Part shown: one piece after another, positions 35,746-64,000 of the stretch
How positions within the stretch are numbered: position 1 is the first letter of the stretch
Layout: each line of letters begins with the position of its first letter
From: an uncultured Synechococcales cyanobacterium
Lineage (GTDB): Bacteria; Cyanobacteriota; Cyanobacteriia; Thermosynechococcales; Thermosynechococcaceae
Length of the DNA: 64,000 nucleotides
Assembly: GCA_902806435.1 (NCBI GenBank)
Contig: CADCWO010000103.1
Span: 1,308-65,307 of the forward strand
Direction: 5' to 3'
Position numbers and translations under genes: made by a program
Notes under the pieces: model-generated
The model's input: the letters and a program-made list of their open reading frames with translations, nothing else
Told to the model about the DNA's origin: nothing
Database searches by the model: none

Positions 35746-37797
35746 TTAAGGTAACGGGGTTTCTGCTACGGAAGAACGTCGCCGCCGCCGCCGCACTACT
35801 GGTGTAGTCTCTTCCAGCTCCTGCGCTGGCTCCTGCCCCGGTTCCGGCTCTTGGCTGACTGGCGTTAGCTCCTCCAGAGACATTACTGAAGATTCAGCGA
35901 TTGGAGTCATAGAAACAGCTTCCTCTGAAGGCTGACTGGGCAGAGGCTTAAGCTCAACATCGGCAGGTAAGCGGGATAAGTTGCTGCCATTAGAGGTTGT
36001 GATGGCAACAACCACAGACTTCGGGTCCTTCACTTCTCGATTAACCAACACAAGCGGTGAAATTCCCATCAGGGCATAGACTTCCTGCTCCTCAGGGGTC
36101 ATTTCTAAAGAGATGGTTTCTGGTGGTTCTTGATTAGGTTTAGGAACTTCTCGTTGTACAGGTTTTGTGCGGCGCTCGGGAGTTATTTTTTCCTCTATAG
36201 GCAGCGGAGCTGTTTTCTGTAATACTGGGATTCGGGAATTTCCCAAAGGGATAGGCAAAGCAGATAGTGTTGGTTCTTCCGCCGGTTTAGCACTAACCAA
36301 ATTTTTGGGTGAGCTGTCACCGCTACGCAGATGCCGCCTTCGCCGCTGGCGTCCGGAAGAGATATCACCACGACTTTGATAGCTGGGATGATTAGATAAA
36401 TCTAAGGCTTGCAGATCATCAGAAGTATCAAGCTCAAATTCTTCTGAGACTACCGCCTGGGCCGCCCGCAGTTCAACTGTTCGTGCTTCTAAGCCATTGG
36501 TATAGGCTTGAGTTTTAGGTGCTGCATGACGCCCCACACTTTCGGCCTCTGTATCTGAAGATTCGCCGGGAAGATGAACCAGATGTCCTAACCCACCACA
36601 GGTTGCGCAGGGCCGCCCAAAAAGTTCGTAGATGTTTTGCCCCTGCCGTTTTCGAGTCAGTTCAACCAGTCCTAATTCTGAAAGCTGAGCAATTTGGGGC
36701 CGAGATTTATCCGCCCTCAGTGCTTTGTTGAAGTGCTCTAAAACCTGAAGCTGGTCGCGCCGCGCGTCCATATCAATAAAGTCAATAATAATCACACCCG
36801 CTATGTTCCGCAGGCGCAACTGTCGTGCGATCTCTGTCGCTGCTTCACTGTTAGTCCATAGCACTGTCTCGCGGGCCGTGGCTGAGCGGGTGAACGAGCC
36901 AGAGTTGACATCAACAACAGTTAGCGCTTCTGTGCGTTCAATGATAATGTAGCCTCCTGAGGGCAGGTCTACTCTTGGCTTGAGGGCCTCTCGAATCGCG
37001 GCGTTGATCCGAAAATAGGTAAGAATTGGGGTTGGCTCACTATGAGAATCCAGCAAAACACCCTGCGGGGGTTTGCCACCACTCCAAGTCATCAAATGCT
37101 GCTTGACTCGCCTTAGGCCGTGGGGGGAGTCAGTGACGATTCGATTCACATCGTCGCTGTAAACGTCTCGCAGCACCCGCTGCACAAAGTCATCATCCCG
37201 ATTAAGTAGTGCCGGAGCTCTAGTAGAGCTCACTTTCTGTTGAATCGCTTCCCACTGCTTTTGCAGCGCTTCTAGATCCTCAATAACTGCTTCCTCGCTA
37301 ACATCCTCTGCTTCTGTGCGGACGAGGAGGCCCATCCCTGCAGGCTTGATCAAGACAGCCAAAGCTCTTAAGCGGTTGCGTTCATTTTCATTTTTAATCC
37401 GCCGGGAGAGATTTACGCCTCGGCCAAAGGGCATTAGGACAAGATAACGGCCAGGCAGGGTAATGTTACCGGTCAACCGGGGGCCCTTGTTGCCGGTAGG
37501 CTCTTTCATGACCTGAATTAAGACCTTTTGCTGCGGTGTCAGTAGTTCAGTGATCGCACCGGCTGAGCGTTTTAGTCGTACTGGCCCCAAGTCAGTAACA
37601 TGAATAAAACCGTTCCGTTCGGTATCACCGATGTTGACAAATGCAGCATCAATACCAGGAAGTACGTTTTCAACGACTCCCAGGTAAATGTCACCCACTT
37701 GATGGCTGCCTGTGGCAACAATTAATTCTTGAATTTGATCTTCTGAAAATACGGCAGCAATACGATGCTGCTCGGCAATGATAATCTGTTTTGGCAT
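35746..37797 (-). CDS. rne: ribonuclease E/G (cyanobacterial RNase E)
   Basis: A 683-aa endoribonuclease. Residues 1-400 are the catalytic core: S1 domain (GDIYLGVVENVLPGIDAAFVNIG), catalytic region (GVIIIDFIDMDARRDQLQVLEHF with the Mg-binding Asp residues), and the Zn-link CATC motif (GRPCATCGGLGHL). The remaining 280 residues are low-complexity and acidic/basic. They end in a run RRRRRRSS close to the C-terminus, the site by which cyanobacterial RNase E is reported to bind polynucleotide phosphorylase. It therefore probably organises an RNA-degrading complex. A 480-base leader precedes it; rne leaders are often self-regulated. Confidence 0.96.
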   Translation of the reverse strand: MPKQIIIAEQHRIAAVFSEDQIQELIVATGSHQVGDIYLGVVENVLPGIDAAFVNIGDTERNGFIHVTDLGPVRLKRSAGAITELLTPQQKVLIQVMKEPTGNKGPRLTGNITLPGRYLVLMPFGRGVNLSRRIKNENERNRLRALAVLIKPAGMGLLVRTEAEDVSEEAVIEDLEALQKQWEAIQQKVSSTRAPALLNRDDDFVQRVLRDVYSDDVNRIVTDSPHGLRRVKQHLMTWSGGKPPQGVLLDSHSEPTPILTYFRINAAIREALKPRVDLPSGGYIIIERTEALTVVDVNSGSFTRSATARETVLWTNSEAATEIARQLRLRNIAGVIIIDFIDMDARRDQLQVLEHFNKALRADKSRPQIAQLSELGLVELTRKRQGQNIYELFGRPCATCGGLGHLVHLPGESSDTEAESVGRHAAPKTQAYTNGLEARTVELRAAQAVVSEEFELDTSDDLQALDLSNHPSYQSRGDISSGRQRRRRHLRSGDSSPKNLVSAKPAEEPTLSALPIPLGNSRIPVLQKTAPLPIEEKITPERRTKPVQREVPKPNQEPPETISLEMTPEEQEVYALMGISPLVLVNREVKDPKSVVVAITTSNGSNLSRLPADVELKPLPSQPSEEAVSMTPIAESSVMSLEELTPVSQEPEPGQEPAQELEETTPVVRRRRRRSSVAETPLP

Positions 37798-61478: not shown

Positions 61479-61797
61479 GTGCAGTTAAAAGGAGCGAGGG
61501 TTAAAACTGCTCAATCATAGATTATCTCGGCCGTAAACGACTGCCCTGTCAGTTTTCAAAAAATGAGTCACGGTTATAACTCATGAGCCTTAACGCCTAG
61601 ACGTTGGAGCTAATCTAGATGATTGCTACCAGGTAGAGAGCGGCCTGATCTTGCGCGCCATTGTCACTGCCCCCTGAGCCCTTATCTTCGGCCACAGCTC
61701 AACCCAGAATTGATAACTAAATTAGCCAATACGTCTGAATAGTTTGTCAGTTCAAGCCTTATCAAGAATAAGAGCTTATACCGGAGGTCTTAGTTGT
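61479..61797. other. intergenic, no gene seen
   Basis: About 320 bases between divergent pyrB and the next gene, with no protein frame or clear RNA. It must contain both promoters. GGAGG a few bases before 61798 serves the downstream gene. Confidence 0.4.
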
Positions 61798-62298: not shown

Positions 62299-62380
62299 TG
62301 ATCCCCCCAACCCCCCTTGATAAGGGGGGCTTAATTTTGTAGAGCGATGACTTCACTTGCCCTGATTGCCCCTTGGATCT
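62299..62380 (+). repeat. C/G-run palindromic repeat, copy A (long form)
   Basis: An 82-base unit beginning TGATCCCCCCAACCCCCCTT, with GATAAGGGGGGC completing a hairpin and then a less conserved tail (TTGTAGAGCGATGACTTCAC, then CTGATTGCC and GGATCT). It matches copy D (63061-63142) along nearly its whole length. Confidence 0.9.
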
Positions 62381-62455
62381 TGAACGTTGGAACTTGGAGC
62401 AAAAAGCTCGACACTCCGAGTTCTAAGTTTGAAAGCTGGAGTTCACCCATTTGAC

Positions 62456-62492
62456 TGATCCCCCAACCCCCCTTGATAAGGGGGGCTTGACT
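62456..62492 (+). repeat. C/G-run palindromic repeat, copy B (short form)
   Basis: Repeat of the core only: TGATCCCCCAACCCCCCTT then GATAAGGGGGGCTTGA. The tail seen in copies A and D is absent. Confidence 0.9.
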
Positions 62493-62652
62493 CTCTAAAG
62501 GAGCGTTCGCACTAATCATCCTGAGACTAAATATGGCTTGCTATCATCACTACAGAGATTCGCGGGCACCAGTAATCTCTGTTCAGTGCTCTCCCAAATG
62601 ATTGCAAGTTGCCGCTGACTTTTTAGCTGTCCTGATAGAGTGTAAACGTCCA

Positions 62653-62690: not shown

Positions 62691-63104
62691 ATGGCTTCTG
62701 AAAAGACCTGGGTTAATACAGACTTTCACTTGCCTTACAACCGAGAACTTGTAGAGCGTGCCAAAGTGCTGCGGAAAAATCCAACCCAGGCAGAAAAAAA
62801 GCTCTGGAACGACTACCTAAAAACCTTTGAACTCCGTGTTTTAAGACAAAGGCCAATTGACCACTTTATTGTTGACTTTTACTGTCCTCAGTTGAAGTTA
62901 GTAATAGAGGTCGATGGCGACAGTCATTTCACAGCCACAGGCCAAGATCGGGATACTGAAAGAACTAGAGTATTGGCAGGTTATGGGCTGAAGGTGCTCA
63001 GGTTTAGCAACGATGAGGTGCTGCACAATTTCGCCAGTGTGTGCCAGCGCATAGGAGATTTGATCCCCCCAACCCCCCTTAAAAAGGGGGGCTTGACTTT
63101 GTAG
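62691..63104 (+). CDS. DUF559 (Vsr-like) endonuclease-domain protein
   Basis: A 137-aa protein: LPYNRELVERAKVLRKNPTQAEKKLWNDYLK, then LRQRPIDHFIVDFYCPQLKLVIEVDGDSH (catalytic-core D-x-E-type residues) and TRVLAGYGLKVLRFSNDEVL. The DUF559 family has the fold of Vsr mismatch endonucleases and type II restriction enzymes. Its function is unknown. The start lies inside repeat copy C and its last residues (IPPTPLKKGG) are encoded by repeat copy D, so gene and repeats are one unit. Confidence 0.88.
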   Translation: MASEKTWVNTDFHLPYNRELVERAKVLRKNPTQAEKKLWNDYLKTFELRVLRQRPIDHFIVDFYCPQLKLVIEVDGDSHFTATGQDRDTERTRVLAGYGLKVLRFSNDEVLHNFASVCQRIGDLIPPTPLKKGGLTL

Positions 63105-63142
63105 AGCTATGGCTTCTTTACTTGCTCTGATTGCTCGGATCT
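63061..63142 (+). repeat. C/G-run palindromic repeat, copy D (long form), inside DUF559 3' end
   Basis: Same 82-base unit as copy A. Its left half codes for the DUF559 C-terminus on the plus strand, and its right half codes for the last nine residues of the acetyltransferase on the minus strand. Confidence 0.9.
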
Positions 63143-63753
63143 CGCCCGCTTTCTCGGTGCCAATCTGCTCGGTTCAGGCGATAAACGCAGCAATTGTCCT
63201 TACCGAACCGCCGGTGCTCGACAAATTGGAAGCCAAGACGTTCATAGAAGCGGTGAGCGCGGGTATTGCTGGCTAGCGGATCAATGAGTACAGCCATCAC
63301 AGCCGGGTCAGCGAAACAGCGAGCCAGGGCAAGCTGCATCATTTGCGTTCCATAGCCTTTGCCCAAATCGGTCTCTTCCCCGATCCAGATGTCAATGGCG
63401 CGCAGATCCGCTGGGACATTCCCCCAATAGTGGCTCTCTTCCCGTGCTGGATCGATGATCTGGACAAATCCGATAGGACGAGCATCAATTTCCGCAATCA
63501 ACTGCTCTCGCCAATCGGGGGTACGGTCAAGCTCCACCTCCCAGTTCCAGTCATCATTGGGATCTGAGGTAATCACGTGAGGTTGCTCATCCCAGTGTCG
63601 CAGCAGAGCCAAATCAGCAGCGGTAGCGGAGCCTAGGTGCAGCACAACTGGTTTATACGGCAAACTGACTGGAGTATTGACAATCCTTGGCCTAATAAGA
63701 CACAAGATCAGTTGCCGTGAGCGAGAGAACGGGTGAAGAGCACATGCGAGCAC
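63118..63753 (-). CDS. GNAT acetyltransferase, aminoglycoside 6'-N-acetyltransferase-like
   Basis: A 211-aa frame with a GNAT domain from about residue 40: LALLRHWDEQPHVI, GFVQIIDPA, then DIWIGEETDLGKGYGTQMMQLALARCF (acetyl-CoA loop) and VLIDPLASNTRAHRFYERLGFQFV. It resembles AAC(6')-Ib-type enzymes, which acetylate aminoglycosides or related amines, but activity is untested. The GTG at 63753 lies 5 bases from the attC-like site; a TTG near residue 32 is an alternative. The last residues (SGRDPSNQSK) come from repeat copy D, so the natural end was lost or replaced. Confidence 0.8.
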   Translation of the reverse strand: MLACALHPFSRSRQLILCLIRPRIVNTPVSLPYKPVVLHLGSATAADLALLRHWDEQPHVITSDPNDDWNWEVELDRTPDWREQLIAEIDARPIGFVQIIDPAREESHYWGNVPADLRAIDIWIGEETDLGKGYGTQMMQLALARCFADPAVMAVLIDPLASNTRAHRFYERLGFQFVEHRRFGKDNCCVYRLNRADWHRESGRDPSNQSK

Positions 63754-63757
63754 TCTA

Positions 63758-63816
63758 GCGTAACTGCCGCGTAGAGCGGAAGGCTGCTCGCGGTCGGCTT
63801 CATCGCCTGGTTAGGT
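63758..63816 (-). other. attC-like recombination site
   Basis: On the minus strand a 59-nt stretch starts ACCTAAC (fits RYYYAAC) and ends GTTACGC (fits GTTRRRY at 6 of 7). The two halves (AGGCGATGAAGCCGACCGCG and CGCTCTACGCGGCAG) can fold back imperfectly. The stop codon of the upstream gene lies within the first box and the next gene begins 5 bases after the last box, the typical layout of integron cassettes. Confidence 0.6.
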
Positions 63817-64000
63817 CTCTTTCAGAGATGACACCTCATCGGGTGCGTCGGGCAAGGGATCGCGAGTCTGAGTGAGCAACCGCGGAAGTCCGAGATCCTC
63901 CGGCGGAGCAGCGTGTGTCGCGATGTAGTCGAGCAGCTCTTGTGATGTGGTGAACCACTCGTAACCAACGCTCAGATCTATAAGACGCTGTGAGCTAGCA
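63811..64000 (-). CDS. partial gene, 3' end only (integron-cassette-like), unknown
   Basis: An open frame of 62 codons runs from the window edge to a TAA at 63811-63813, with no stop in between. It reads SQRLIDLSVGYEWFTTSQELLDY, then a Pro-rich acidic tail (PPEDLGLPRLL; DPLPDAPDEV). No family was recognised. The stop lies in the attC-like site. Higher G/C than the upstream region suggests foreign origin. Confidence 0.6.
   Translation of the reverse strand, partial: ASSQRLIDLSVGYEWFTTSQELLDYIATHAAPPEDLGLPRLLTQTRDPLPDAPDEVSSLKET

Follow-up and report, generated by a model that had tools for sequence, protein, structure and literature searches.

A probable remnant of an integron cassette array beside an acetyltransferase gene in an uncultured Synechococcales cyanobacterium

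Clusters of attC sites with no integron integrase are known as CALINs (PMC9024848, PMC8618304) and a single such site as a SALIN (PMC12690207), and insertions at attG sites were described by Loot et al. (2024), as cited in PMC12690207 and PMC11641012. Integrons of cyanobacteria are already known (PMC2426708, PMC8352920, PMC9668308); since they had been listed by 2008 (PMC2426708) and an attC model specific to Cyanobacteria is available (PMC8352920), the remark in the initial annotation of the present locus that cyanobacterial cassette arrays are little described was only partly true. The DNA analysed here (the window) was a stretch of 64,000 nt, positions 1308–65307 of contig C103 (genome G000; 4.79 Mb in 278 contigs). 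A second sequence, L004, extended the window rightward, and its positions plus 60000 give positions on the window scale. We estimate a probability of about 85% that the locus is a fragment of a decayed integron cassette array, namely a remnant cassette pair of the CALIN type derived from a lost cyanobacterial integron. The features concerned were as follows.

63118–63645, minus strand: GNAT acetyltransferase gene (Acetyltransf_8, AAC(6')-like fold; Pfam PF13523, E = 3.8e-26)
63758–63816, minus strand: attC2, cassette recombination site of 59 nt (alignment to attCs; covariance match weak)
63758–63764, minus strand: R' box GTTACGC of attC2, with the expected crossover between G63764 and T63763
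63810–63816, minus strand: attC2 R'' box, ACCTAAC; its exact reverse complement, GTTAGGT, is found at the cassette's 5' end (64287–64293, outside the window)
63811–64263, minus strand (L004:3811–4263; the 3' part, 63811–64000, in the window): T5orf172/MUG113 cargo gene, GIY-YIG-like, 150 aa (Pfam, ORF list)

The 59-nt stretch at 63758–63816 is an attC-derived site. As the initial annotation had described, it starts on the minus strand with ACCTAAC, which fits RYYYAAC, and ends with GTTACGC, which is near GTTRRRY, and the TAA stop codon (63811–63813, minus strand) of an upstream ORF, here identified as T5orf172/MUG113, falls within the R'' box. The 5' half of attC2 was canonical, with R'', 10 nt, and AGCCGAC at the usual offset, like the class-1 attCs of aadA1 and cmlA; whereas R'' and L'' were canonical, the 3' arm was atypical in that the usual L'-R' spacer was missing. 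The GTG that had been placed 5 bases past the last box was also present, at 63753, but it is probably not the start of the acetyltransferase, which is predicted to begin at GTG 63645 because alignments with its homologues start only at about residue 37. The imperfect fold-back claimed for the site was not borne out: attC2 as it lies in the chromosome folded unremarkably (91 nt, z = -1.3), and only the form closed with the cassette's own 5' end folded better, at -13.3 kcal/mol versus -8.4 +/- 2.0 in shuffles, 16 of 1000 of which were as good. The closed unit gave a perfect R''/R' pair.

The cassette was delimited as a 529-bp unit, 64292–63764 on the minus strand, with both ends cut at G^TT and with the 5' boundary beyond the window. 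It opened with TTAGGT after a decayed upstream site (attC1) and, as expected of a gene cassette, consisted of one ORF and one attC with a 5' end complementary to R''. The boxes at the cassette ends, GTTAGGT (64287–64293) and ACCTAAC (63810–63816), paired at 7/7 positions and over 5 further bases. Three cassettes of this genome (one in C210 and two in C255) showed the same 7/7 box pairing, and up to 4 extra paired bases were found at other consecutive sites, so that extended pairing is not foreign to the cassettes of this genome; however, 23 of 225 pairs in an all-against-all control of its boxes were also 7/7, and box pairing alone is therefore weak evidence.

The ORF of the cassette was 5'-open within the window, and the 150-aa form starts at 64263, outside it. 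The protein matched PF13455 (MUG113; E = 7.2e-10) and PF10544 (T5orf172; E = 1.8e-6), and a nuclease activity would be predicted from its GIY-YIG-like family. The GC content of the gene was 0.567 versus 0.498 for the window. The cargo attached to attC2 is probably this T5orf172 gene, which lies upstream of attC2, and not the acetyltransferase that the initial annotation had proposed, as the latter follows attC2, is missing an attC of its own, and appears to be native. PADLOC gave no match to the cargo protein, and tblastn against plasmids and phages gave none at E 1e-5 and one weak match, to an Aulosira plasmid, at E 0.1. The closest homologue found (52%) was in an Opitutaceae MAG (L081), the surroundings of which showed no recognisable cassette array.

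Sequence beyond position 64000, where further attC sites or an intI had been suggested to lie, contained a second attC-like site, attC1, at about 64287–64379 on the same strand as attC2, but no intI nearby. It had no recognisable R'' box and shared TCTGCGTCCG.T.AGCTTGA.CGTTAGG with the attC of contig C193 of the same genome. Both sites thus flank one ORF, on the same strand and head-to-tail. In local alignments to 20 cyanobacterial attCs, neither attC1 nor attC2 being among them, attC1 ranked first (z = 6.4) and attC2 joint second (z = 4.5) of 13,318 subwindows covering 80 kb, by a statistic of our own; against 606 other segments, both sites were above every null mean. The subwindow that tied with attC2, 36397–36486, is part of a coding gene resembling ribonuclease E/G, and we attributed the tie to chance.

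Covariance models were less responsive. Model R1, trained on class-1 attCs (five) and IntI-adjacent cyanobacterial attCs (four), scored attC2 at 8.3 bits (E = 1.9 in 20 kb) and did not list attC1, and model R2, built from the 20 cyanobacterial attCs, matched neither site even with filters off. The weak or absent scores are likely due to the missing spacer in the 3' arm of attC2 and the loss of the R'' box of attC1, and from these results both sites are degenerate. A sequence profile of cyanobacterial attCs called neither of them, Rfam at the gathering threshold gave nothing at attC2, and blastn of the window end against its own genome retrieved only GATCCCCCC repeats and no close copy of an attC. 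The initial annotation had named the lack of both an attC score and further sites as evidence against its reading; the score was indeed weak, and a further site was present.

The GNAT gene was assigned to the AAC(6') type by the initial annotation, but its best score against the curated AAC(6') models of NCBIfam was 53.6 bits, versus a cut-off of 280; its closest solved structures were those of AAC(6')-Ib (46–48 bits). Homologues with 65–78% identity occurred in 9 of the 57 relatives searched. Judging from these comparisons, it is a native cyanobacterial chromosomal gene downstream of the cassette. The strongest alternative is that the GNAT gene is itself a cassette gene, in the order (attC1)-T5orf172-(attC2)-GNAT, and that its own attC was lost. 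It starts 118 nt beyond the attC2 crossover, its homologues occur in differing contexts, an attC directly follows the GNAT stop codon in relative G001 (22.5 bits) and a truncated copy in G017 (43.5 bits), and GNAT-family genes lie between some of the five attC matches at 2062–6470 of L115 (contig C255), which form a true cassette array in this genome. On the other hand, models R1 and R2 found no attC after the GNAT gene at this locus, most copies in relatives are without a nearby attC, those of G013 and G017 have an upstream chromosomal gene in common, and the GC content of the gene is close to that of neighbouring genes. We thus regard the GNAT gene as unlikely to be a cassette gene, although this reading retains some plausibility.

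The decayed-array reading is supported by the rest of the genome, in which R1 gave 11 attC matches and R2 gave 29, on 18 contigs (best E = 2.8e-14); ten of the 29 are training sequences of R2, and the rest are independent of training. With an attC-derived site in the window, a second just past its edge, and many better attCs elsewhere in the genome, the assignment of the locus to the integron type stood. A near-identical ORF (MESTFLLHKPVSYGSSF...) adjoined an attC in two contigs (L113 3154–3933, minus strand; L115 6533–6955, plus strand), as if one cassette-linked gene were present twice. In the 20 kb of L004 no intI was found, and a genome-wide search with TIGR02249 reached other tyrosine recombinases only (best E = 2e-9); apart from a remnant on contig C182 (LLGHKDVKTTM..., 75% over 28 residues), IntI was absent from the genome. 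The locus therefore cannot be classed as a complete integron. By contrast, intact IntI was encoded in the same-family genomes G002, G005, G006, G008, G010, and G013 (TIGR02249, up to 485 bits), in several cases with attCs upstream. Five same-family genomes and two others had zero attC matches, which speaks for the specificity of the attC model. The most matches among the 39 genomes searched, 104, were in a same-class relative with a 4.3-Mb genome (G035).

The layout on the minus strand reads as a worn attC1 of the host-lineage type (about 64379–64287), the 529-bp cassette with attC2, and the chromosomal GNAT gene. An integron integrase would have folded the attC in its single-stranded form, cut at G^TT, and placed the cassette circle into a site already present. 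By analogy with known integrons, IntI would at one time have captured the present cassette, and an integron promoter would have driven its expression. From the layout, which is directly visible, and from the same-family genomes with intact IntI, we infer insertion by IntI; no empty site that would prove the insertion was found. With the integrase lost, the cassette is now locked in place unless one is supplied in trans. A sigma-70 scan of L004 3000–5600, which does not address Pc itself, gave no promoter-like site; given this and the lack of an integrase, the cassette is probably passed on today like any other chromosomal gene and may be decaying. The term array used in the initial annotation is generous, as only one cassette was recognisable and both of its sites were degenerate.

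That there is only one recognisable cassette could also mean that a single foreign cassette was inserted beside the GNAT gene at a non-attC genomic site, as an attG-type insertion or SALIN. The difference of attC2 from the host-lineage type and the occurrence of the nearest cargo homologue in the Opitutaceae MAG (52%) are in line with such an origin; however, the left flank of the cassette is attC-like, being the best subwindow in 80 kb and having a motif in common with the C193 attC, and we consider this origin distinctly improbable. Even less credible is a chance occurrence of the boxes, or a small inverted-repeat element unrelated to integrons, because, although the covariance models call neither site and a perfect inverted repeat of 12 bp is present at the ends (GTTAGGTCTCTT/AAGAGACCTAAC), the flanks (GATC before, CAGG after) show no target duplication, attC sequence lies outside both ends, the ORF stops inside R'' as in cassettes, and extended end pairing occurs in other cassettes of the genome. 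The missing target duplication also led us to reject the 529-bp unit as a transposon with its ends.

Other repeats were observed in the neighbourhood. A 56-nt repeat with GATCCCCCC...GGGGGGCTT was present in three copies (62299–62354, 62455–62510, and 63061–63116) that surround a DUF559 endonuclease gene at 62691–63104, and a 63-nt direct repeat (84% identical) flanked the cassette region, with copies at 61539–61601 and L004:5050–5112, about 3.5 kb apart.

The attC call of the initial annotation was thus essentially right, with the cargo moved to another gene. More interesting than the single locus are the scattered single attCs in relatives: in seven low-contig relatives, 103 attCs formed 66 groups, 50 of which were single sites, and this abundance of single attCs fits the SALIN/attG literature as cited in PMC12690207 and PMC11641012. 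We tentatively suggest, while considering it doubtful, that the cassettes of this lineage have become dispersed as single units next to core genes across the chromosomes and outlast the loss of intI, so that the whole genome, and not a single array, acts as the cassette store. Some genera of the family have intact integron integrases, whereas others retain no more than dispersed attC relics, which makes the family a natural series for studying integron decay and the landing of cassettes outside arrays.

Compared with the described systems, the decayed array is like a CALIN in having two attC-derived sites head-to-tail around a cassette ORF with no intI nearby, but differs in that both sites fall below the covariance-model thresholds used and only one cassette is recognisable; of the at least two same-orientation attCs without intI that make a CALIN, two were found by alignment and neither by covariance model. 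Like a SALIN or an attG insertion, it has a lone cassette between chromosomal genes and no intI, whereas its target looks like a worn attC and not an unrelated genomic site. From the chromosomal integrons of cyanobacteria it differs in that only the 28-residue intI remnant remains and in that attC2 is nearer to the class-1 type, which it resembles more than the attCs of the host lineage. The link to these integrons is that same-family genomes have intact IntI and attCs similar to those of the present genome, which attC1 resembles.
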